Shown here: positions 40,269 to 51,579 of the stretch, piece after piece | Position numbering within the stretch: position 1 is the first letter of the stretch | How the letters are laid out: the number at the start of each line of letters is the position of its first letter | Assembly (NCBI RefSeq): GCF_030811555.1 | Contig: NZ_JAUSQZ010000001.1 | Span: 4,833,241-4,897,240 of the forward strand | Length of the DNA: 64,000 bases | DNA from: Kineosporia succinea | GTDB taxonomy: Bacteria; Actinomycetota; Actinomycetes; Actinomycetales; Kineosporiaceae | Reading direction: 5' to 3' | Translations under genes and position numbers: made by a program | The notes under the pieces: model-generated | The model's input: the letters and a program-made list of their open reading frames with translations, nothing else | Database searches by the model: none | What the model was told of the DNA's origin: nothing

Positions 40269-43200
40269 CTACCCGAGGTCGAGCTCGTCCTCGCGCACGT
40301 CGATGTTCTTCGCCGTCGGCCGGTAGGCGCTCATCCACTCGCGCAGAAGCTCGACGCGCGAACGGTTCTCGTCGTCGCCCAGCACGATCGGCGGGTCGTT
40401 GTAGGCCACCGCGTCCGACGAGCGGCGCAGCTTGATGTAGAGGTTGGACGCCTCGATCGCGTAGCGCTCCATGTCGTCCTGCAGGGCGCCGATCACCGTG
40501 ATGTTGCGGTCGCGGCCGATCCGCTCGAACAGGGCCACGGCCTCGCGACGGTGCTGCTTGCCCAGGTTGCGGCCCAGCTCGTCGAGGATCAGCAGCAGCG
40601 GACGGTCGTTGCCTCCCGCCAGCGCCGCCGCACAGACGAGCTTCACGGCCTTCTCGTCCATCTGCGCCGTGTTCGCCCGCAGGTTGTAGCTCGACATCCG
40701 CTGGTTCTCGGCCCGGCGCCAGCGCGGCGTCAGGCTCCAGCGCCACGGCTTGTCCGGCTCGGTCGGCGGCTCGGGCTCGGGGTAGTCCAGCCCGGCGCCG
40801 TACCCTCCGTACTCCCGGTCGAGCCGGTCGAACTCGTCGGCCACCAGTTTCAGCTTGGCCTTGATGCCCTGCGCGAGCACGGCCCGGTGCGCCCGCGTGG
40901 TCTGCTCGGACTCCGACAGCCCGGCCCGGGCCGCCTCCAGGTCGGCGCGGCGCTGGGCCCGCTGCTGGTCGATCATCGCCTGGTCGTGCGCGTCCTGCTG
41001 CGCCGTGACGTCCAGATGGGTGCGCAGTGACCGGGTCAGGTCGGGGATGAGCGGCACCTGGGCCTCGAGCGTGATGTGCGGCCACTTCTGCTCGAACACC
41101 AGCTCCCGCAGCTCCGCCGGGTACTCCTGGGCCGCGGTGTTGTCCGGGAAGCAGCGCCGCAGCACGTCACGAAGGTGATTGGCCACCAGGTTGTTCCAGT
41201 CCACCGTGCTTCGCCGGGCCTCGTCCTCGGGCAGCGTCAGCAGGTGCTCCTCGGCCGAGCCCGACGTCGCGCCCCAGGCCACCGCCCGCGCGTCGACATC
41301 GACCGACCGCAGCTCGTTCTCGAGCTTCTCGGCGATGTCGTCGGCCTGCTTCACCTCGGCCCGGCTGCGGTTCACCTCACCGCGCAGCTGGTCGATCTTG
41401 TCCTGCCGGGTCTGGCGGTCCACCGCGGCGCGGGTGTGCGCGGCCTCGGCGTCCTCCAGCGGGCCGAGCAGATCCTCGAGGGCCTCCTGCAGCTCACCGG
41501 CCTGCTCCCGCAGCCGCTCGATCTCGATCTCGGCGTCCTCGACCCGCTGCGCCGCCTTCGCGCCCTCCAGCCGCGAGTTCGCCGTGGACAGCCTGCCGCG
41601 GGCGCGTTCCAGCTGCGCGCCGATCCCGGCCAGCATCTCGCGCGTCATCTCGTGCTGCTCGTGGGCGGCGCGCACCCGGGCGTCGCGGCCCGTCAGGGGA
41701 CGGTCGAACCCGGCCACGACGATCACACCGGCCTGCTCGTCGACCCGGGCCTGCGACGAACCGGCCCGCTCCGCCAGTGCCTTCAGGAACGTCGCCAGGC
41801 CGAACTCGTCGGTGGTGCTGTTCGGGAGGTCTCCCGACGGCTGCCCGTCGGCCAGCACGATCACCGAGCCCGGCGCGTCCGCGAGCACCGCGGTCGCCTT
41901 CTCGGCGTGGGCCCGCGGCACGGCCACGGCGTGCCGGTAGGGCACCAGCCGCGGCTCCCAGACCGCGCGCTGCGCCTCGGTCAGGGCCAGCACGTCGACC
42001 ACGCTGGCCGCCGGGATTCCCACGCTCTGCAGCAGTTTCAGCTCGGCGGCGGCCACGTCGTCACCGGCCTCGGCGGCCTTGATCTGGCGGGCGGCCGAGG
42101 CCACCGCGTCCTCGGCGGCACCCCGGCGCGAGAGGATCGACTCCAGCAGTTCCTGCGCGGCGGCGACCTCCTCGCGGGCCTTCGTCACGTCGCGGCCGTC
42201 GGCGGCGCGCGCGGCCTCCTTGAGGTCACGCAGTTTCGCGCCCAGTTCCTCGACCGAGCGCAGGTTCATCCGGGCCTGGGTGTCGGCGTTGCTGCGCCGC
42301 TCCCGCAGCTCGTTGCGCAGCCGCTCGGTCGCCCGGAACGTCTCCTGCAGACCGTCGTCGTTGCCGAGTTCCTCCATCCGGGCCTCGTTCTCGGCCAGGC
42401 GCTCACGGGCCTCGGCCTGGCCGCCGCGCACGTCACCGAGGTTGCGGCGGATCTCGGCCAGCCGCTCCAGGCCGTCCACCACGTGGCGCGCACAGCGTGA
42501 GCGCCACGCCTCGCGGGCCTGACCCAGTACCTGCCGGGCCACGTCCCGGCGCCTGATACCGGCTTCCACGCCTTCCATCTCGCGCTGCCAGGTGGCCAGG
42601 TCGTGCTCGGCCTCGGCGACGTCGGTGCGCCGCGCGTGCTCACCCGAGCGCAGCGCCTGCTCCTGCTCGAGCTCGCGGTCCAGGCCGGTCAGGGTGGCGA
42701 CGGCGTCGAACATGCGCCACGGCGACAGCTCGTTCAGGGGCTGGGCCAGGAGATTGGCGGCGGGGGACGCGCGGACGGAGGTGGAGAGGAACGAGACACA
42801 GCGCACCTGGCCGCCGTACAGGACCCGGGCGAGGCGTCCCGCGTGGAAGTCGTCGCGCCCGTTGGAGTGCGGCAGCCGGTTCCACAGACCCTCGACGCCG
42901 GCCGCGCGCTCGGCGTCGTTGGAGCCGTGGGGCACGTGCAGCCCGCGGGTCCAGCGCAGGCTCAGGTAGGGCGACTTGCGGTTGATGCGCAGCCAGACCG
43001 TGAGCGCGCCGGCCTCGAGTTCCTCGAGCGTCTGCGAGGCGGAGTCGGCGTACACCCCGATGACGAAACCGTGGTCGGCGTTCGCCCACTTCGCCTCCTG
43101 CGCGGCCAGTTCCGCGGTGAACAGCAGCTCGGCCGCACCCGGGGCGCCGCCGGCCAGACGCCACTGCTCGTCGGCGTGCAGCAGGCTCAGGGCCGCGATG

Positions 43201-43388
43201 AACGACGACTTGCCCGCGCCGTTGCTGTCTTTCGGCCCCTGCCCGGCCACGGTGATCAGGCCGCCGTTGGTCAGCGGCACCGGATGGGCCGACAGTCGCG
43301 AGATGTCGACCATCTGGACGCCCACCAGCACCCGCGCGCCGACGATGTCGGTCGGGTCGTTGCGGTCGATCAGGGCTGGCGTGCTCAC
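40269..43388 (-). CDS. SMC-like ATPase (MukB/MksB/JetC-type) of a four-gene operon
   Basis: 1039 residues. The N-terminal head has VAGQGPKDSNGAGKSSFIAA (Walker A Lys at residue 60; Asp stands at the first P-loop Gly, as in JetC/MksB-type proteins). Two long coiled-coil arms (about residues 250-480 and 600-760) flank a compact hinge-like segment (about 480-590, VPYRHAVAVPRAHAEKATAV, LADGQPSGDLPNSTTDEFGL). The C-terminal head has LLLILDELGRNLGKQH (Walker B Asp936, Glu937). The ABC signature is not LSGGE but MDEKAVKLVCAAALAG. It overlaps the upstream gene by 4 bases. Probably loads on DNA with the three partners; defence against plasmids or chromosome organisation are both possible. Confidence 0.85.
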   Translation of the reverse strand: MSTPALIDRNDPTDIVGARVLVGVQMVDISRLSAHPVPLTNGGLITVAGQGPKDSNGAGKSSFIAALSLLHADEQWRLAGGAPGAAELLFTAELAAQEAKWANADHGFVIGVYADSASQTLEELEAGALTVWLRINRKSPYLSLRWTRGLHVPHGSNDAERAAGVEGLWNRLPHSNGRDDFHAGRLARVLYGGQVRCVSFLSTSVRASPAANLLAQPLNELSPWRMFDAVATLTGLDRELEQEQALRSGEHARRTDVAEAEHDLATWQREMEGVEAGIRRRDVARQVLGQAREAWRSRCARHVVDGLERLAEIRRNLGDVRGGQAEARERLAENEARMEELGNDDGLQETFRATERLRNELRERRSNADTQARMNLRSVEELGAKLRDLKEAARAADGRDVTKAREEVAAAQELLESILSRRGAAEDAVASAARQIKAAEAGDDVAAAELKLLQSVGIPAASVVDVLALTEAQRAVWEPRLVPYRHAVAVPRAHAEKATAVLADAPGSVIVLADGQPSGDLPNSTTDEFGLATFLKALAERAGSSQARVDEQAGVIVVAGFDRPLTGRDARVRAAHEQHEMTREMLAGIGAQLERARGRLSTANSRLEGAKAAQRVEDAEIEIERLREQAGELQEALEDLLGPLEDAEAAHTRAAVDRQTRQDKIDQLRGEVNRSRAEVKQADDIAEKLENELRSVDVDARAVAWGATSGSAEEHLLTLPEDEARRSTVDWNNLVANHLRDVLRRCFPDNTAAQEYPAELRELVFEQKWPHITLEAQVPLIPDLTRSLRTHLDVTAQQDAHDQAMIDQQRAQRRADLEAARAGLSESEQTTRAHRAVLAQGIKAKLKLVADEFDRLDREYGGYGAGLDYPEPEPPTEPDKPWRWSLTPRWRRAENQRMSSYNLRANTAQMDEKAVKLVCAAALAGGNDRPLLLILDELGRNLGKQHRREAVALFERIGRDRNITVIGALQDDMERYAIEASNLYIKLRRSSDAVAYNDPPIVLGDDENRSRVELLREWMSAYRPTAKNIDVREDELDLG

Positions 43389-44122
43389 GTGGTCTCTTCC
43401 GTTGTCTCAGTCAGGTTCTCGGGCTTGAGGACGCCGTCCTCGGACGGACGGGCGCGGCGCGCCCGGATCGCGGCGGCCAGAGGGGTGTCCGCCCCGGCCG
43501 CGAGGATCAGTTCCTCCTGCAGCCGCCGCCGGGCCGCGGGGGTCAGCCGGGCCAGCTGCGGTCCGGGCAGGTACGACGCACCCGCGTTCTGGCTACTGCT
43601 GGAACGGGTCTGGGGCGGGCGCCGGTCGGGGGCGATCTGCACGAGCCCGGACGCGCGCAGTCGCGCGAGCGCGGTGCGCACCGCGGTGCGGGGGAGCTTG
43701 GAGTAGCGGTTCAGCTCGTCCATCGACGTGGGCTGGTTCGAGATCCAGGTGTCCAGATCGATCAGGCCCTGGCTGCGCGGGATCGCCACCGAGTGGATCA
43801 GGATCAGCACGAACACCGCCCGGTCGACCAGCGGCAGCGATGCGAGCGTCTCCTCGCTCAGTTCGCGGGCGACGTCGTCGCGGTAGCCGGACGTCCACAG
43901 GTGCGGGCCGACCTTCACCAGCGTGCGGCCCAGCGGGTGCAGCATCTGCTGCAGCGCCCGGCGCAGGGTGGCGTCGCGCAGGGCGAGCATCTGCGACTCG
44001 TGCAGCGGCTGCCAGCTGTGCTCGACCGCGGCGTAGGCGGCCAGCACCTCGTCACGGTGCCGCTCGGACAGGTCGGCCACGGCCGCCGTGAACGCCGGAT
44101 GCGTCTCGGCCATCTCGGTCAC
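43385..44122 (-). CDS. SMC-operon protein 3, winged-helix-like partner
   Basis: 245 residues, helical. Its centre (LIDLDTWISNQPTSMDELNR, then LPRTAVRTALARLRASGLVQ) is a winged helix typical of MukF/MksF or kite subunits of SMC complexes. The N-terminal part (DEVLAAYAAVEHSWQPLHES) is helical. It starts with an ATG inside the stop of gene 2 (ATGA) and its stop overlaps the SMC start. No enzyme motif. I infer that it binds the SMC heads or necks. Confidence 0.65.
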   Translation of the reverse strand: MTEMAETHPAFTAAVADLSERHRDEVLAAYAAVEHSWQPLHESQMLALRDATLRRALQQMLHPLGRTLVKVGPHLWTSGYRDDVARELSEETLASLPLVDRAVFVLILIHSVAIPRSQGLIDLDTWISNQPTSMDELNRYSKLPRTAVRTALARLRASGLVQIAPDRRPPQTRSSSSQNAGASYLPGPQLARLTPAARRRLQEELILAAGADTPLAAAIRARRARPSEDGVLKPENLTETTEETT

Positions 44123-44901
44123 GGCCGCACCTCCTCGTCGTCAGCCAGAACGTCGTCCGGAGCCTCGACCGGAACGTCAGCCGGAGCCTCGACCGGAACG
44201 TCAGCCGGAGCCTCCGCCGGCACGTCAGCCGGATCCTCGGCCGGCACGTCAACCGGAACCTCAGGTGCGTCGAGCGCCTCGGCGACCACCGCGTCCTCAA
44301 GGGAAACCTCAGGCGCCGCAGACGCTTCGGCGACCGCGTCGTGCGTCGTGAGGCTCTCGGGCTCGTCGACGTCCTCCTCGGGCTCCTGCGGCAACGGCAG
44401 ACTGCGGTACAGCTCGCGCAGCACCGTGAGGTCGGCGTTCACCCATGTGCCACAGCGCGGCCCCAGACGCACCACACGCCGGTCTTCGTCCCACAGCACC
44501 CAGCCACCGCCGTGCAGACGCCGGATCGCCCCGGTCGCGGCCCGGTGCAGGACGGATTCGTCGCGGTCGCCGAACGTGCGGTAGACCGACATGACGGTCT
44601 CCCAGTCCACGTCGCGCCCGGGCCAGATCGGCGCCTCCGGATCCGTCCAGCAGCAGCGCACCACGGCGGCGAGCATGCGCGCGGTGTCGTTGGGCTGCTC
44701 GACCGAGGGCCCGGGCAGGCCCATCTCGTCGAGCACCCACGGCCCGGCCGTGCCGGGATGGGCGGGCAGCAGCCACACCTCGGCGGCGTGCGGCTCCATG
44801 AGCCGCAGGAAGCCGTCGGGCGCGGGCGTGCCGGTCTCGTAGCGCGCGGGCCCGAGCGCGCGGGCCCGCGCCCACCACAGGGCGGTGTCGGAACTGTTCA
44901 C
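44119..44901 (-). CDS. SMC-operon protein 2, with acidic repetitive tail
   Basis: 260 residues from the GTG at 44901, which overlaps the stop of gene 1 (GTGA). The first 175 residues look folded: LMEPHAAEVWLLPAHPGTAG and a C-terminal winged-helix-like part (LHRAATGAIRRLHGGGWVLW, DEDRRVVRLGPRCGTWVNAD). The last 85 residues are very acidic and repetitive, with ADVPVEAP/ADVPAEAP copies. The winged region fits a MksE/JetB-like kite subunit, but I cannot assign it. The tail may mimic DNA or bind a basic surface. Confidence 0.6.
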   Translation of the reverse strand: MNSSDTALWWARARALGPARYETGTPAPDGFLRLMEPHAAEVWLLPAHPGTAGPWVLDEMGLPGPSVEQPNDTARMLAAVVRCCWTDPEAPIWPGRDVDWETVMSVYRTFGDRDESVLHRAATGAIRRLHGGGWVLWDEDRRVVRLGPRCGTWVNADLTVLRELYRSLPLPQEPEEDVDEPESLTTHDAVAEASAAPEVSLEDAVVAEALDAPEVPVDVPAEDPADVPAEAPADVPVEAPADVPVEAPDDVLADDEEVRP

Positions 44902-46115
44902 GGACGCGCAGCCCCCACGACCCGGCCGAACCGGCCGCCCGAGACCCACGGCACCGCCGCCTCCGGATCCACCCGGAAACCGTCGGCCCAGGTCAGCTCC
45001 GCGTCGACCTCGGGGGAGTGGTGAGCGGCGACCATCAGGGACAGCGTGCGGCGCCCGTCCATCCAGTCCTCCGCGGCGTCGAGCAGTTCCGAGACCCCGA
45101 CCCGGTCGCGTCGGCCCAGCACCCGGTCGGTGAACTCGCGCAGGTCGGAGTCACCCGCGACGGGACGCTCGGTGGGCGCGTCGGTGGCGTCGGTCGGCCG
45201 CGGCGGGGGCATCCGCACCGGCCCCGACGTGGAGGCGTTCTCGACGGCCAGCGCCATCGCCTGCGGGGAGAACCAGGGCGCGACCGCGTCGAAGACCTGC
45301 CCGTCGAGCACCCCGGCCAGCGTCTCGGCGTCGGCGGTGCGCGCGAACGTGCGCCAGGTCTCGACCGGCAGCAGTCCCAGTGCGCGGGTGGAACCGGCCT
45401 GCTCGATCAGCCGGGCCGCGGCCGACTCGCTGGCGTCGGCGTACGCGGCCAGCGACGTGCGCAGCTGGGCACACTCGCGGTGCAGTTCGGGCCAGCGCCC
45501 CAGGGCCTGGGCGTGCACGTCCTCGGCCTGGCGGATCAGCGCCCGGTTGCCCCACAGCAGCTCGGCGTGCTCACGCAGTTCCTCGACCGGGCTGGTGGTG
45601 GTCAGGCTGGAGAGCTGGTTGGCCATCAGCCGGAACACCCGCGACAGGCGGTTGACCGAGCCCCGGCCGTCGTCGTGCGTGGCACCGGGTGCCCGGATGC
45701 TCAGCCCCTCCAGGGCCAGCAGCTGGTGCAGCTCGCCCTGGCCACCGGCGGCGGCCAGGCGGCGCAGGAACAGCAGCATCACGTAGGGCGCGAACGCGGC
45801 GCGGTGGAAGCGCTCGCCGGGGTGGTCGACGACCCGGGTGATCGCGCCGTAGCCGCGCAACACCTCGAAACGGCGCGTGACCTGGGTCTGGTCGTAGCCG
45901 CGGCAGGCGGCGACGGTGGCCTCGACCGACAGGCCCTCGTTGCCGGCCTCGGCGAACGCGGACAGGATCGCCTCGTCGATGTCGAGCAGCTCGACGTCGC
46001 TGATCATCGCGCCGTGCTCACGGGCGAGGACGGCGAAGACCTGGCGGTAGATCCGCAGGACACCGGCCTCGGGAGCGAGATCCTCCAGGGAGAGCGTGGT
46101 CGGGCCGTCAGTCAC
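44898..46115 (-). CDS. SMC-operon protein 1, kleisin-like (MukF/JetA-type) candidate
   Basis: 405 residues and the first gene of the operon. The N-terminus holds a winged helix (LRIYRQVFAVLAREHGAMIS, SVEATVAACRGYDQTQVTRR, FEVLRGYGAITRVVDHPGER). A long helical middle (HAELLWGNRALIRQAEDVHA, ELHRECAQLRTSLAAYADAS) and a C-terminal domain (LREFTDRVLGRRDRVGVSEL, then GRRTLSLMVAAHHSP) follow. This winged helix, coiled-coil, C-domain order is that of MukF/JetA kleisins. It is the only member of the operon with its own upstream space (about 150 bases), so the promoter is probably there. Confidence 0.65.
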   Translation of the reverse strand: MTDGPTTLSLEDLAPEAGVLRIYRQVFAVLAREHGAMISDVELLDIDEAILSAFAEAGNEGLSVEATVAACRGYDQTQVTRRFEVLRGYGAITRVVDHPGERFHRAAFAPYVMLLFLRRLAAAGGQGELHQLLALEGLSIRAPGATHDDGRGSVNRLSRVFRLMANQLSSLTTTSPVEELREHAELLWGNRALIRQAEDVHAQALGRWPELHRECAQLRTSLAAYADASESAAARLIEQAGSTRALGLLPVETWRTFARTADAETLAGVLDGQVFDAVAPWFSPQAMALAVENASTSGPVRMPPPRPTDATDAPTERPVAGDSDLREFTDRVLGRRDRVGVSELLDAAEDWMDGRRTLSLMVAAHHSPEVDAELTWADGFRVDPEAAVPWVSGGRFGRVVGAARP

Positions 46116-46934: not shown

Positions 46935-47570
46935 CTAAGCGGGTGAGTCCTCGAGCCCGGCGAAGCCCGACTGCCAGGCCGTCAGGGCGATGTCGAGGTA
47001 GCTGATCAGGTCGGCGTCGCGCCGGGCCACCCACTGGTCGAACGCGGCCCGGCACACGCCCAGCGCGCTGTAGCCGATGGCCCGGGGGATCAGGTCGTCG
47101 GCGCGCTGCCCGAGACGGCGGGCGGCGAACTCGGCCAGGGCGCCGGCCCAGTTGTCGTAGTGCTGGGTGGAGGCGGCACTGATCGCCGGGACGTGCGAGA
47201 TGACCTGCATGCGCGCGCGCAGGCTGGCCACGTCGTCCACCCCGTAGTGGTTGGCCGCCAGAACGGCCTGCCGGATCGACTCGGTGACGGGCTGCCCGGC
47301 CGGGGCCTCTCCCAGCAGCCGGTGCAGCGTCTCCACCTCGGCGTCGAACTCCGACCAGAGCACGTCGGCCTTGGTGTCGAAGTAGCGGAAGAAGGTGCGC
47401 CGGCTGACCCCGGCCCGGTCGGCGATCTGCTCGACCGTGGTGGCGTCGAAGCCCTGCTCGGAGAACAGTTCCAGGGCGATGCGCTCGAGGGTGCGGCGGC
47501 TGGTGGCCCGGGGCCGCCCGCTGCGCGGCTCGTTCGGTGCCGCTGAACGAGCCGCTGACCCCGTTGCCAT
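46935..47570 (-). CDS. mftR: Mycofactocin system TetR regulator MftR
   Basis: 211 residues from the ATG at 47570 (GGAGGAG about 9 bases upstream). The HTH is ERIALELFSEQGFDATTVEQ, IADRAGVSRRTFFRYFDTKA. The C-terminal domain (VQVISHVPAISAASTQHYDN region, YSALGVCRAAFDQWVARRD) matches the MftR family, which is divergent from mftA in actinobacteria. Known MftR represses the mft operon and responds to acyl-CoA. GTGTC/GACAC motifs in the 215-bp mftR-mftA gap are its likely operators. Confidence 0.88.
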   Translation of the reverse strand: MATGSAARSAAPNEPRSGRPRATSRRTLERIALELFSEQGFDATTVEQIADRAGVSRRTFFRYFDTKADVLWSEFDAEVETLHRLLGEAPAGQPVTESIRQAVLAANHYGVDDVASLRARMQVISHVPAISAASTQHYDNWAGALAEFAARRLGQRADDLIPRAIGYSALGVCRAAFDQWVARRDADLISYLDIALTAWQSGFAGLEDSPA

Positions 47571-47589
47571 GCGCCGCACACTCCTCCGC

Positions 47590-47613
47590 GTGTCGTGACA
47601 CGCCGGACGTGTC
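47590..47613. promoter_or_regulatory. GTGTC/GACAC half-sites upstream of mftR
   Basis: GTGTC-GT-GACAC at 47590-47601 and another GTGTC at 47609-47613. The same pentamer forms the inverted repeat in the mftA promoter, so these are candidate MftR sites for autoregulation. Confidence 0.5.
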
Positions 47614-47711
47614 ATCGAGTGCCATTCAATCACCGAGTTGATCCACGAGGTGCCGCGGTCAACCCCCGCCCGGCCGATCAGTGGTCACTCCCCGGATGTC
47701 GATGACTACCC

Positions 47712-47742
47712 TTGACGCTTACGACACGGAGTGTCATAAACT
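47712..47742 (+). promoter_or_regulatory. mftA promoter with embedded operator
   Basis: TTGACG at 47712-47717 and TAAACT at 47737-47742, 19-bp spacer. The inverted repeat GACAC-GGA-GTGTC (47723-47735) fills the spacer, so a bound repressor would block RNA polymerase. Best placed site for MftR. Confidence 0.6.
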
Positions 47743-47784
47743 CCGGTGAACATCGCTGTTCACCGTGGAAGAGAGGTCGTTTCG

Positions 47785-47889
47785 ATGGACAACACGAACG
47801 CTCCCCAGGACGTCGCCGAAGCTCAGGACGCCGTCGAGGAACTTCTGGTCGAAGAGGTCTCCATCGACGGGATGTGCGGCGTCTACTGA
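47785..47889 (+). CDS. mftA: Mycofactocin precursor peptide MftA
   Basis: 34 residues ending in IDGMCGVY, the conserved C-terminus of MftA. The last Val-Tyr is the core that MftC decarboxylates and crosslinks to form the cofactor precursor. The acidic leader (VEELLVEEVS) is the part bound by MftB. The ATG has GAGAGG about 9 bases upstream. It precedes mftB by 17 bases in the same operon. Confidence 0.97.
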   Translation: MDNTNAPQDVAEAQDAVEELLVEEVSIDGMCGVY

Positions 47890-47906
47890 CGGCCGTCCCT
47901 CAGACC

Positions 47907-48257
47907 ATGGCGAACACCCAGCAGAAGAACCGGATGTCGGTGCCTCCCAAGGCCCCGGCGCAGGGCTTCGATCTCGACGCCGCCTGGGAGCTGCACCCCA
48001 GCGTCTCCATCCGGCCCGAACCCTTCGGGGCCCTGATGTACCACTTCGGGAACCGGCGCCTGTCGTTCCTGAAGACCCGTCAACTACTGGACGTCGTCAA
48101 CGGTCTGGCCACCGCCCCGGACGCGCGCACCGCGTGTCTGGAGGCGGGGGTCGACCCCTCCCAGCTCCCGGTCCTCGGCCGGGCCCTGGGATCCCTCGCG
48201 GCCGGTGATCTCATCCGCCCGAAGACGACGACGATGTCCACGGAGGAGCCTGCATGA
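47907..48257 (+). CDS. mftB: Mycofactocin peptide chaperone MftB
   Basis: 116 residues, a PqqD-like RiPP recognition element. Text such as FDLDAAWELHPSVSIRPEPF, GALMYHFGNRRLSFLKTRQL and LLDVVNG is typical of MftB. It holds the MftA leader for the radical SAM enzyme. The stop overlaps the mftC ATG by 4 bases. Confidence 0.95.
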   Translation: MANTQQKNRMSVPPKAPAQGFDLDAAWELHPSVSIRPEPFGALMYHFGNRRLSFLKTRQLLDVVNGLATAPDARTACLEAGVDPSQLPVLGRALGSLAAGDLIRPKTTTMSTEEPA

Positions 48258-49624
48258 CGGCTGTGCTCGAACCGGCTACCCCGGCCGGTTTCACCCCGAA
48301 CCCTGTCAAGCCCAACACCCCGAGTCCTGGTCGGCTCGTCGACAAGTTCGCCCTCGGGCTGGACGCGCCGATCTGCCTCACCTGGGAACTCACCTATGCC
48401 TGCAATCTCGCCTGCGTGCACTGCCTTTCGAGTTCCGGACGGCGTGACCCCCGCGAGCTGACCACCGCCGAGGCCGAAGCGGTCATCGACGAGCTGGAGC
48501 GGATGCAGGTCTTCTACGTCAACATCGGCGGCGGCGAGCCGACCGTGCGACCGGATTTCTGGCACCTGGTCGACTACGCCACCGCGCACCACGTCGGCGT
48601 GAAGTTCTCGACCAACGGTGTCCGCATCAACAAGGAGGTCGCCGAGCGTCTGGCCGCCTCCGACTACGTCGACGTGCAGATCTCGCTCGACGGCGCGACC
48701 GCCGAGGTCAACGACTACGTACGTGGTGCCGGCAGTTACGACACCGCCATGCGGGCCATGCAGAACATGAAGGACGCCGGATTCTCCGGGTTCAAGCTGT
48801 CGGTCGTGGTCACCCGCCAGAACGTCGGCCAGCTGGACGAGTTCAAGGCGATCGCCGACCGGTACGGCGCTCAGCTGCGCCTGACCCGGCTGCGTCCCTC
48901 GGGCCGCGGCGCCGACGTCTGGGACGAGCTGCACCTGCTCGCACCGCAGCAGAAGGAGCTGTACGACTGGCTCGTCGCCAACGGCGAGGAAGTCCTCACC
49001 GGCGACTCCTTCTTCCACCTGGCCGCTTTCGGTGACGCCCTGCCCGGGCTCAACCTGTGCGGGGCCGGTCGCGTGGTCTGCCTGATCGACCCGATCGGCG
49101 ACGTGTACGCCTGCCCGTTCGCCATCCACGACGAGTTCCTCGCCGGGAACGTGCGCGAGGAGGGCGGTTTCAAGGGCGTGTGGCAGACCTCGGAGCTCTT
49201 CCAGGAGCTGCGGCAGCCGCAGAGCGGCGGGGCGTGCTCGTCCTGCCAGTTCTTCGACTCCTGCCGGGGTGGCTGCATGGCGGCCAAGTTCTTCACCGGC
49301 CTGCCGCTCGACGGGCCCGACCCGGAGTGCGTGCGCGGTTTCGGTGAGTCGCTGCTCGAGGGGGTGGAGGGGGCGACCCCGAAGCCGATGGGCGACCACT
49401 CGCACAAGAACCCGCTGCGCTCGCAGAAGAACAAGAAGAAGCCCGTGGCGCTGACACTCGGCGTGCGCCCGGTCACCGGGGTGGTCTCGGCCCCGCCGGC
49501 CCGAGGGTGCGACGAGAACCCGCTCGCCGGCTTCGATCCCGCCGCGGCGGGGGTGCGTCCGCCGGTGCGCGGCTGCGACGAGAATCCGCTCGCGGGTCTC
49601 GAAACCGGCTCGCAGGTCAACTGA
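48254..49624 (+). CDS. mftC: Mycofactocin radical SAM maturase MftC, with extended C-terminus
   Basis: 456 residues. The radical SAM cluster is CNLACVHC (Cys50, Cys54, Cys57), followed by NIGGGEPTVR. The SPASM region has CGAGRVVCLIDPIGDVYACP and CSSCQFFDSCRGGCMAAK for auxiliary clusters. MftC decarboxylates the MftA C-terminal Tyr and crosslinks it with Val. Family members are about 390 residues (M. tuberculosis 391). Here about 60 extra residues follow, with RGCDENPLAG at 417-426 and again at 439-448. The role of the extra Cys-Asp-Glu-Asn motifs is unknown. Confidence 0.95.
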   Translation: MTAVLEPATPAGFTPNPVKPNTPSPGRLVDKFALGLDAPICLTWELTYACNLACVHCLSSSGRRDPRELTTAEAEAVIDELERMQVFYVNIGGGEPTVRPDFWHLVDYATAHHVGVKFSTNGVRINKEVAERLAASDYVDVQISLDGATAEVNDYVRGAGSYDTAMRAMQNMKDAGFSGFKLSVVVTRQNVGQLDEFKAIADRYGAQLRLTRLRPSGRGADVWDELHLLAPQQKELYDWLVANGEEVLTGDSFFHLAAFGDALPGLNLCGAGRVVCLIDPIGDVYACPFAIHDEFLAGNVREEGGFKGVWQTSELFQELRQPQSGGACSSCQFFDSCRGGCMAAKFFTGLPLDGPDPECVRGFGESLLEGVEGATPKPMGDHSHKNPLRSQKNKKKPVALTLGVRPVTGVVSAPPARGCDENPLAGFDPAAAGVRPPVRGCDENPLAGLETGSQVN

Positions 49625-49636
49625 GTCAATGATGGA

Positions 49637-49670
49637 CGCGCGGCAGCTCCCGGTGGGGAGTTGCCGCGCG
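49637..49670 (+). terminator. Terminator after mftC
   Basis: A 15-bp stem (CGCGCGGCAGCTCCC with its complement, one G-T pair) with a GGTG loop and a TTCGTGTTTT tail. It separates mftABC from the SDR genes, so mftABC form their own transcript. Confidence 0.85.
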
Positions 49671-49774
49671 TTCGTGTTTTCCTAGTCCTGAAAACACTTT
49701 TCGCAGGCCCCGGGACCCGGGGCCATTTCGTCGTTCCCGACTGGGGAGACGAAAGTCCTTGACCACCAGGGGCG

Positions 49775-49790
49775 TTCGACAAGTGTCGAA
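49775..49790. promoter_or_regulatory. Inverted repeat before the SDR genes
   Basis: TTCGACA-AG-TGTCGAA, 7-bp arms, within the 290-base gap before the first SDR. A possible operator; the half-site TGTCGAA differs from the GTGTC sites at mftA. The rest of the gap has no recognisable gene. Confidence 0.4.
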
Positions 49791-49913
49791 GAGACGAAGG
49801 TCACCTCCCGTTCGGCGCCGCCGAGGGAGGCGATCGATAGTTGACCGGGCTACTAATAGACCTGAGGGGATGCGAACCATTCGCTGACAACGTAGTTGGA
49901 AGAGGTAACCCCC

Positions 49914-50723
49914 ATGGCAGGACGAGTAGAGGGCAAGGTCGCTTTCGTCACCGGAGCAGCCCGTGGTCAGGGGCGCAGCCACGCGCTCAAGCTGGCCTCC
50001 GAGGGGGCAGACATCATCGCCGTCGACATCTGCGCCCCGTTCGACGACCTGGAGTACCCGGCGGCGACCGAGGACGACCTGGCCGAGACGGTGAAGCTGG
50101 TCGAGGCGCTCGACCGCCGGATCGTCGCCTCCGTCACCGACATTCGCGACGGCGAGGCGCTGACCAAGGCCGTCGACGACGGTGTGGCCCAGCTCGGCAA
50201 GCTCGACGTCATCGTCGGCAACGCGGGTATCTGTCACGTGGGTGCCTGGGACAAGGTCACGCAGAAGCAGTGGCAGGACACGCTCGACGTCAACATCACC
50301 GGTACCTGGAACACGGTGCGCGCCGGGGCTCCTCACCTGATCCGCAACGGCGGCGGCTCGATCATCCTGACCAGCTCGGTCGCCGGTCTGGTCGGCCTGC
50401 CCTTCCTCACCCCGTACGTGGCCAGCAAGCACGCGGTCACCGGCCTCGCCCGCACCTTCGCGGCCGAGCTGGCGCAGCACCACATCCGCGTCAACAGCCT
50501 GCACCCGACCGGCGTCGAGACCCCGATGGGCGCCATGGGCAACGCTTTCGGCCCGCTGCTCGAGGCCAATCCGGGGCCTGGCGTCATGCTCGGCAACATG
50601 TACCCGGTCGCGGCCACGCAGCCCGAGGACCAGTCGAACGCCGTGCTCTTCCTGGCCAGCGACGAGTCCCGCTACGTCACCGCCCTGGCCATGACCGTCG
50701 ACGCCGGCGCCACCCAGCTGTAG
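49914..50723 (+). CDS. Mycofactocin-coupled SDR oxidoreductase 1
   Basis: 269 residues. The Rossmann motif is FVTGAARGQGRSHALKLA, and VDIC gives the Asp for NAD. The insertion YPAATEDDLAETVKLVEALD is characteristic of the mycofactocin-coupled SDR subfamily, which holds NAD tightly and needs mycofactocin to be reoxidised. Catalytic residues are Ser in TSSVAG and Tyr-Lys in YVASKHAV. It probably oxidises an alcohol; the substrate is unknown. Next SDR starts 14 bases later. Confidence 0.9.
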   Translation: MAGRVEGKVAFVTGAARGQGRSHALKLASEGADIIAVDICAPFDDLEYPAATEDDLAETVKLVEALDRRIVASVTDIRDGEALTKAVDDGVAQLGKLDVIVGNAGICHVGAWDKVTQKQWQDTLDVNITGTWNTVRAGAPHLIRNGGGSIILTSSVAGLVGLPFLTPYVASKHAVTGLARTFAAELAQHHIRVNSLHPTGVETPMGAMGNAFGPLLEANPGPGVMLGNMYPVAATQPEDQSNAVLFLASDESRYVTALAMTVDAGATQL

Positions 50724-50736
50724 GGAGAGGATCACC

Positions 50737-51579
50737 GTGACAGGACGTGTAGAGGGCAAGGTCGCGCTCATCACCGGTGCGGCCCGGGGGCAGGGACGCA
50801 GCCATGCGATCCGGCTGGCGCAGGAGGGCGCGGACATCATCGCGCTCGACATCGCCGAGTCCATCCCCAGTGTCGACCGGTTCTACCCGGGCGCGACCGA
50901 GGAGGACCTGGCCGAGACCGTGCGGCAGGTCGAGGCGCTGGACCGGCGGATCTTCTCGGCCAAGGTCGACGTGCGTGACTACGACGCGCTGAAGGCCGCG
51001 ACCGACGCCGGCATCGCCGAGTTCGGGCGCCTGGACATCGTTTCCGCGAACGCGGGCATCTTCCTGCACTCCGACAAGACCCACGAGGTCAGCGACTCGG
51101 ACTGGAACGACGTGCTCGACATCAACCTCAAGGGTGTCTGGCACACGACCAAGGCCGTCACCCCGTTCCTGATCGAGCAGAACCAGGGCGGCTCGATCAT
51201 CATCACCAGCTCCTCGGCCGGTCTGAAGGGCACGCCGAACGTGGCGCCCTACACGGCGAGCAAGCACGCCGTGCTGGGCCTGGCCCGCACCCTGTCGAAC
51301 GAGCTGGCCGAGTACTCGATCCGGGTCAACACGATCCACCCGACCGGGGTGGCCACCCCGATGATCCTGAACGAGACCACGTTCAAGCTGTTCCTGCCGC
51401 ACCTCGAGCACCCCACGCAGGAGCAGGCCGCCGAGGTCTTCCGCACCACGAACAGTCTGCCCGTGCCCTGGGTCGAGGCGATCGACATCAGCAACGCCCT
51501 GCTGTTCCTGGCCTCCGACGAGGCCCGGTACGTCACCGGCACCGAGCTGAAGGTCGACGCGGGTTACACGACCAAGTAG
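50737..51579 (+). CDS. Mycofactocin-coupled SDR oxidoreductase 2
   Basis: 280 residues, GTG start with GGGAGAGG upstream. A paralogue of the preceding gene: LITGAARGQGRSHAIRLA, the subfamily insertion FYPGATEEDLAETVRQVEAL, SSSAG with the catalytic Ser, and YTASKHAV with Tyr-Lys. It has a longer substrate loop (NETTFKLFLPHLEHPTQEQA), as in carveol-dehydrogenase-type enzymes. Both SDRs are in one operon and probably share a mycofactocin pool. Confidence 0.9.
   Translation: MTGRVEGKVALITGAARGQGRSHAIRLAQEGADIIALDIAESIPSVDRFYPGATEEDLAETVRQVEALDRRIFSAKVDVRDYDALKAATDAGIAEFGRLDIVSANAGIFLHSDKTHEVSDSDWNDVLDINLKGVWHTTKAVTPFLIEQNQGGSIIITSSSAGLKGTPNVAPYTASKHAVLGLARTLSNELAEYSIRVNTIHPTGVATPMILNETTFKLFLPHLEHPTQEQAAEVFRTTNSLPVPWVEAIDISNALLFLASDEARYVTGTELKVDAGYTTK

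Follow-up and report, generated by a model that had tools for sequence, protein, structure and literature searches.

A Wadjet-related four-gene SMC operon of Kineosporia succinea with a probable pair of KITE subunits and no JetD-like gene found in the genome

The structural maintenance of chromosomes (SMC) complexes MukBEF and MksBEF have one gene each for a KITE (kleisin-interacting tandem winged-helix element) subunit, MukE and JetB act as homodimers, and Smc5/6 has two SMC genes. Excerpts of the literature describe MukE as a dimeric KITE and Nse1/Nse3 as the corresponding pair of Smc5/6 (PMC10512200), and present P. aeruginosa MksBEF as an assumed chromosome organiser and C. glutamicum MksBEFG as a complex acting on plasmids (PMC7083940). 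Here, we describe an operon of four genes, A-B-C-SMC, on the minus strand of a 64,000-nucleotide stretch of the Kineosporia succinea genome (contig NZ_JAUSQZ010000001.1, positions 4,833,241 to 4,897,240; hereafter, the window). Judging from sequence comparison and predicted folds, we favour, with moderate confidence, the interpretation that the operon encodes an effector-free condensin of the JetC/MukB type, with a probable pair of two different KITE subunits, that acts on the host chromosome. The nearest precedent would be the contrast between Pseudomonas MksBEF and Corynebacterium MksBEFG (PMC7083940).

The operon and its four proteins

The operon spans window positions 40269-46115, and all coordinates given for its features are those of the window, minus strand. 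Gene A (44898-46115, 405 aa), recognised from its open reading frame (ORF) and predicted fold, encodes a putative kleisin of the MukF/JetA type; gene B (44119-44901, 260 aa), delimited by its ORF and a 4-base overlap, encodes the probable first KITE subunit; the ORF of gene C (43385-44122, 245 aa) encodes the predicted second KITE subunit with tandem winged helices; and the last gene (40269-43388, 1039 aa; ORF, hhalign and phmmer) encodes a MukB/JetC-like SMC ATPase. The start of gene B is the GTG at 44901, and a longer, mechanically called ORF begins at 44949. All neighbouring gene pairs overlap by 4 bases, as the first-pass annotation, made from the window sequence alone, had reported. When the co-occurrence of the genes was checked, as had been proposed there, all four were found together and in the A-B-C-SMC order in 41 of 42 relative loci (one scan of genome contigs), the sole exception being a 4-kb contig fragment (L039), so that the four-gene set is not a product of chance. 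The junctions are similarly tight across the family, with a 4-base overlap at 77 and an 8-base overlap at 18 of the 120 junctions in 40 relative loci (L030 left out of the count). All four genes are under purifying selection, with dN/dS of 0.16-0.29 in comparisons with Kineosporia mesophila, K. rhizophila and K. babensis. Family members include named strains of Kineosporia, Jiangella, Kribbella, Amycolatopsis and Saccharothrix.

Some loci depart from this layout. About 2 kb of extra DNA separates C from SMC in Kribbella monticola (L022, 8051-9977) and K. catacumbae (L031, 7945-10001). In Fodinicola (L030:5890-11435), A, B and C seem to form one reading frame; given the irregular frames and the shortened SMC gene, a real triple fusion is uncertain, and this locus was not used as evidence.

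The lack of a clear match that the first-pass annotation had noted for one partner holds for all four proteins in the family libraries. None of the four proteins reaches a family cut-off in Pfam or NCBIfam, where only sub-threshold, generic or coiled-coil matches appear, and no PADLOC family claims any of them, the matches in PADLOC (which shows no cut-off) being generic, coiled-coil or weak.

The SMC protein appears to be JetC-like. Against the JetC of actinomycete type-I Wadjet, its profile scores 97.0% (hhalign, E 1.2e-10) over 588 columns, from the N-terminal head to the hinge; with a deeper alignment, the scores against type-II and type-III JetC are 3.5% and 1.6%, from small profiles of three and five sequences, respectively (we take the labels II and III to apply as the PADLOC names suggest). 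PADLOC matches to JetC2 are weak (E 0.0066), no Pfam SMC family matches above the cut-off, and phmmer against PDB yields three matches, namely, a MukB fragment (3ibp, E 0.0021) and two lipoprotein chains (E 0.5). The motifs and the hinge-sized centre that had been called initially are present: a Walker A motif, DSNGAGKS (43203-43226), within the stretch D54-S62 (DSNGAGKSS) that is invariant in the SMC alignment, an aligned Walker B motif, LLLILDE (40578-40598), and an approximate hinge at residues ~450-565 (41694-42041) that aligns with the central, hinge region of JetC. The coiled coils were judged from the sequence and from SMC- and LmuB-type matches to those stretches. At the signature-motif position (40650-40673), the alignment places NTAQMDEK instead of SGGQ; the pattern is NTA(Q/L/M)MDEK in 22 of 22 examined rows of the crown clade of the family tree, the deep clade (four rows) shows N(S/T/G)A(Q/R), and the four JetC rows compared have SGGQ.

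By its predicted fold, gene A appears to be a kleisin of the MukF/JetA type. The AlphaFold2 model, built from a 36-row alignment, has a mean pLDDT of 61.5 and a pTM of 0.36; in our reading of its secondary structure, an N-terminal winged helix (residues ~41-106) is followed by a helical middle, a low-confidence linker (~263-319) and a C-terminal winged helix (~322-398). The best Foldseek match in PDB is 9gm7_C, from MukBEF (E 8.9e-5), and the first 15 rows comprise 10 MukF/MukEF/MukBEF chains (which, apart from 1t98, we take to be MukF), one Wadjet JetABC chain and four MarR-type regulators; Wadjet JetABC occupies ranks 11 and 18. The fold match to MukF thus agrees with the initial kleisin-like call. 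At the sequence level, gene A scores 7.3%, 0.1% and 1.6% against the three JetA types (hhalign; 0.6% with the first shallow alignments).

For genes B and C, we favour two distinct KITE subunits, with C assigned firmly and B with less certainty, from the model of their fused form. B and C lie in one reading frame in 12 of the 15 crown loci of the Streptosporangiaceae type (L106-L114, L141, L154 and L156), a label inferred from L141, which is Nonomuraea gerenzanensis; the two genes are unfused in the remaining loci of this type (L103-L105), and fused as well in the diverged locus L153. For L106, the fused protein was modelled from a 42-row alignment, with a mean pLDDT of 82.4 and a pTM of 0.52. 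Its top Foldseek match is 9qe0_D, from the Wadjet-II JetABC of Neobacillus vireti (E 1.6e-3), and the first 18 rows include ScpB, MukE, Nse1-Nse3-Nse4 and JetABC chains; the JetABC chain 8dk1_E is among the matches, as are 7dg2 (Nse1-Nse3-Nse4, rank 12) and 5hvq (MAGE-G1/NSE1, rank 26), with ScpB and MukE outscoring Nse1. These matches agree with the winged-helix calls of the first-pass annotation. In the C half of the fused model, the secondary structure fits two winged helices; gene C, which could also be aligned with the deep clade, shows a weak MarR-like winged-helix match (E 1.5e-4, below the Pfam cut-off) and a weak hidden Markov model (HMM) match to one type-II JetB (E 7.3e-6). Neither B nor C exceeds 5.7% against the JetB types (hhalign). 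For B, we infer the KITE nature of the protein alone and its pairing with C in the unfused form. Gene B has a conserved core of ~170 aa followed by a variable, acidic and repetitive C-terminal tail (44122-44355, delimited from alignments) at the position of the variable linker in the fused proteins. The initial description of B as an acidic-tailed, winged-helix-like partner thus stands insofar as the tail is real and B-C matches KITE folds; the tail itself is not conserved, its length varying widely among relatives, some of which lack it.

A possibly exchangeable effector and the relation to known systems

The first-pass annotation described the operon as lacking an adjacent JetD/MksG-like gene. 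Searches with PF09983 and with the family's own D profile (D being the JetD-like protein of some relatives) found no such gene next to the operon or anywhere else in the window genome. As a description of the family, a lack of the Toprim nuclease does not hold throughout: six of 66 distinct loci carry a JetD-like Toprim protein. In total, 71 loci were scanned for a fifth gene, 69 with an SMC match, 66 of these distinct; the flanks scanned range from almost nothing to 15 kb, and some of the effector absences are only as good as the flank. A fifth gene is present in eight of the distinct loci, encoding the JetD-like protein in six and a kinase form in two, and was not found in the sequence scanned of the other 58. 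These eight loci link the family to Wadjet rather than setting it apart.

The JetD-like proteins are encoded at L005, L006, L037 (on the same contig as L155), L152, L153 and L164. JetD_C is matched by L153 (62 bits), L152 (46 bits) and L005 (23 bits; cut-off 22), and DUF2399 by L155 (24 bits) and L164 (36 bits; cut-off 23.4), with L006 below that cut-off (21 bits) and its D protein 84% identical to that of L005. In profile comparison, the D set matches JetD of type I at 95% and of type II at 97% (96.6%). At L005, the D gene overlaps the SMC stop codon by 4 bases. The effector proteins of Saccharothrix sp. NRRL B-16348 (L007:7778-9160) and of a Dactylosporangium metagenome-assembled genome (L028:13117-14496) are JetD-like in the first part only: they share the N-terminal stretch with D and carry a protein kinase in the C-terminal part (Pkinase, E 6.2e-27 and 2.5e-27). 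Both are followed by similar genes of ~350 aa (L007:9221-10279 and L028:14531-15565) that have no Pfam or PADLOC match. In two loci of the Streptosporangiaceae type (L103:13268-15049, the one with PADLOC kinase matches, and L104), SMC is followed on its own strand, after 128-161 bp, by a kinase-like gene, which could be due to chance, such kinases being numerous in actinomycetes.

The effector-free and the nuclease-bearing forms can share a genome: in G486, the copy L154 is effector-free, and the diverged copy L152 has the nuclease. Across 394 genomes of the class, the kleisin profile is found in 29, JetD in 39 and both in two (G059 and G113; chance expectation ~2.9), with JetD 2.3 Mb away from the operon in G059 and on another contig in G113. 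Weak D-profile matches in four operon-bearing genomes (G124, G131, G215 and G377) lie away from the operon or on other contigs, and JetD (PF09983) is found in two of 12 Jiangella genomes, all of which carry the operon. Clustering of flanking ORFs found no fifth gene common to the eight clades, and the loci of Kribbella, Jiangella and Kineosporia that were inspected by eye for a dedicated effector showed no co-directional neighbour in common. In their 5' flank, the 13 Kribbella loci that were compared (including L014) share a large gene, SNF2-type-helicase-like by eye.

We built a tree from concatenated A, C and SMC sequences (34 loci, 1627 columns; IQ-TREE, LG+G4, midpoint root). A deep clade unites L151, L152, L164 and L153; the nuclease is present in the last three, and no effector was found in the 4.6-9.4 kb flanks scanned for L151. 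Crown groups without an effector are the Streptosporangiaceae type, L025, Kineosporia, Kribbella and Jiangella, and the crown loci with a nuclease are L037, L006 and L005. The two kinase loci, L028 and L007, nest beside L005 (support 99 and 95; L037 joins at 64 only), so that the kinase form most likely arose by replacement of the Toprim part. Under Fitch parsimony on the midpoint-rooted tree, presence and absence of the effector require two gains, as opposed to six losses for an ancestral effector, and repeated loss of an ancestral nuclease was considered and not adopted. On the other hand, the effector proteins of both gains share the N-terminal region, and the L164 D protein is closer to the L005 type (129 bits) than to its L153 counterpart (50 bits) even though the L164 SMC groups with L153, which suggests that D moved between lineages. 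With respect to gain or loss of the effector, the tree appears compatible with either direction; the favoured interpretation and the branch proposed below rest on neither.

The comparison with known systems bears out the MukBEF/MksBEF/Wadjet architecture of the initial description, with a JetC-like SMC, a MukF fold predicted for A and a KITE fold predicted for B-C. Type-I Wadjet (JetABCD/MksBEFG/EptABCD) shares with the operon the JetC-related SMC and the kleisin-KITE-SMC gene order, and some relatives add a Toprim protein that matches PF09983 or DUF2399 and the JetD profile. Unlike type I, the window operon has no JetD-like gene that we could find, contains two KITE-like genes rather than one, encodes kleisin and KITE sequences unrecognisable as JetA and JetB, has the signature motif replaced, and is core in three genera. 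MukBEF and MksBEF without MksG (the Pseudomonas type) resemble it in combining a nuclease-free SMC with a kleisin that is MukF-like by predicted fold, including N- and C-terminal winged helices of the MukF type in the low-confidence model of A; the operon differs by its two KITE-like genes (or the B-C fusion) and by sequences diverged below the family models. The likeness to type-II Wadjet consists in the top fold match of B-C (9qe0), the weak match of C to JetB and the match of the D proteins to its JetD; the operon SMC, at ~1040 aa versus ~1490 aa, does not align to the three-sequence JetC2 profile, and A shows no sequence relation to JetA2. Smc-ScpAB follows the same kleisin and KITE logic, and ScpB is among the structural matches of B-C, but the match of the operon SMC to TIGR02168 is confined to a single short stretch (20.7 bits; cut-off 567), and the host encodes its own Smc and ScpB apart from the operon. 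For Lamassu (LmuAB), the match of LmuB to SMC is limited to E 2.7e-5 over a 120-aa stretch, and none of the four proteins matches LmuA in PADLOC at E up to 1. Among the matches listed in searches of the open-licence literature, we found no description of this family, of a kinase-bearing Wadjet, of two distinct KITE genes in bacteria, or of a nuclease-free two-KITE actinobacterial complex of this kind.

A second condensin or a defence complex

The nuclease-free form has core status in three genera, and the genus counts that follow are for this form. The operon is present in all six genomes of the window's genus (7/13 in its family), in all 12 of Jiangella (the genus of locus L044/L043) and in 53 of 54 genomes, including 41 of 41 clean ones, of the genus of the Streptosporangiaceae type (61/150 in the family sample). 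Its kleisin is found in 29 of 394 genomes of the class sample, and the C profile matches six of 396 genomes of the phylum sample, including the window genome; three of the six, at E 1e-4 to 5e-4, are probably chance winged-helix matches. The operon mostly occupies one place per genome, except for split matches and the second copy in G486. Gene A has no relative among phage records and viral contigs, and A and SMC have one match each among plasmid records, in a single 11.85-Mb record. The host genome also encodes a full Smc and ScpB, with the sole ScpB match at C1:4749058, outside the window. Given this conservation across three genera and the separate Smc and ScpB, we consider a second chromosomal condensin the probable function and prefer it to defence without cutting, which we hold to be rather unlikely.

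In such a condensin, an SMC dimer would be joined at the hinge, with its ATPase heads bridged by kleisin A, on which the two different KITE proteins, B and C, would pair; as the heads open and close in an ATP-driven manner, the complex could grip DNA and extrude loops. Because the effector protein of some relatives is absent in the window lineage, the operon by itself would be unable to cut DNA, and the complex would most likely work on the host chromosome beside the ordinary Smc and ScpB.

Several observations weigh against this interpretation. The match of the deeper SMC alignment to type-I JetC (97.4%) covers columns 341-721 only, that is, the middle of the protein, where coiled coil can inflate the score. 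The SMC lacks a canonical signature motif, so that ATP-driven head engagement is an assumption. The model of A is weak by both of its measures, with a single match below E 0.001 and TM-scores, by query length, of at most 0.30 (Foldseek), and profile comparison of A, B and C with JetA and JetB of three Wadjet types gave nothing reliable (7.3% at best). The fused B-C model, with its pTM of 0.52, has no PDB match below E 0.001, its match list also contains winged helices of RNA polymerase III and of transcription factors, and the matches belong to the whole fusion rather than to an assigned B or C half. A cutter unlike JetD may be encoded elsewhere in the genome. Furthermore, high prevalence within a genus is compatible with defence: in the excerpts of one survey, 73% of Rhodococcus genomes encode Wadjet together with a restriction-modification system (PMC10482375).

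According to the defence alternative, the effector-free complex would recognise plasmid or phage DNA through loop extrusion and block it without cutting, or recruit a nuclease or kinase encoded elsewhere. Relatives with an effector speak for it: L005 adjoins PDC-S68 (1356 bits) and Avs2 (E 6.7e-110), L028 adjoins GajA (E 2.5e-195), and L006 has two neighbours with NB-ARC matches, both unrecognised by PADLOC, of which one has a transposase domain as well. The kinase genes behind SMC in L103 and L104 point the same way, as does the frequency of Wadjet in actinobacterial genomes, 42% in the excerpted survey (PMC10482375). Recognised defence genes thus lie beside two of the eight effector-bearing loci (L005 and L028); PADLOC has no match for one neighbour each of L155 and L152 or for the gene behind the L007 kinase. 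Against defence stand the core status of the operon in three genera, the failure to find a JetD-like gene in the genome, the lack of any further gene common to all clades in the flank clustering, and its surroundings, where none of ten window neighbours was judged to be a defence gene. With regard to defence islands, which the first-pass annotation had proposed to look for, these two relatives have recognised defence genes beside them, and the window operon adjoins none. Defence would seem to fit at least some of the effector-bearing relatives, and chromosome organisation appears to fit the window form better, given its core status in three genera and the lack of a recognised defence gene next to it.

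The presence of two distinct KITE-like genes, together with the fold matches of B-C to 7dg2 and 5hvq, raises the alternative of a hetero-KITE repair or tether complex similar to Smc5/6, in which B-C would take the place of Nse1-Nse3 on replication or repair intermediates. We regard this as quite improbable: the SMC profile matches JetC and the protein a MukB fragment, the operon has one SMC gene, and ScpB and MukE outscore Nse1. That the operon is a decaying, functionless remnant of a Wadjet-like system without the nuclease, as the 58 of 66 distinct loci with no effector gene in the sequence scanned and the disturbed loci (the ~2-kb C-SMC gap in L022 and L031 and the irregular frames of L030) might indicate, is very unlikely given the dN/dS values in all four genes, the conserved Walker motifs, the maintenance of the four genes together and the presence in 53 of 54 genomes of one genus.

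With a DNA-cutting protein or a kinase in the effector place of some relatives, the family may illustrate how machines for immunity and for chromosome maintenance turn into one another. We tentatively propose a Wadjet-like SMC branch that has a hetero-KITE pair and a slot for an exchangeable effector, occupied by a Toprim nuclease, by a kinase on the same N-terminal module or by nothing, the effector-free state having become fixed as a second condensin in whole actinobacterial genera; such a branch would record traffic, in either direction, between a chromosome machine and an immune machine. Such change becomes testable with nuclease, kinase and effector-free forms on one tree and two forms in one genome. 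If true, a kinase in the place of the nuclease would give SMC immune complexes a new output, and a bacterial SMC with two distinct KITE genes would be unusual.

Neighbours of the operon in the window

The surroundings of the operon look ordinary, and seven of the ten window neighbours have no PADLOC match at E 1e-5. The matches of the other three, to mad3 (E 4.7e-17, an AAA ATPase), pVip (E 9.7e-18, a radical SAM/SPASM protein) and IetA (E 2.9e-7, AAA-like), are taken as generic. Pfam identifies an AAA domain, an MftR-type TetR regulator, a radical SAM/SPASM protein, a GDSL (SGNH) lipase and a peptidase M1 among five of the neighbours. The MftR-type TetR regulator (46935-47633) and the radical SAM/SPASM protein (48254-49624) adjoin the operon, and dehydrogenase-like ORFs lie at 49896-51579; the neighbours at 46935-51579 presumably form a mycofactocin cluster.

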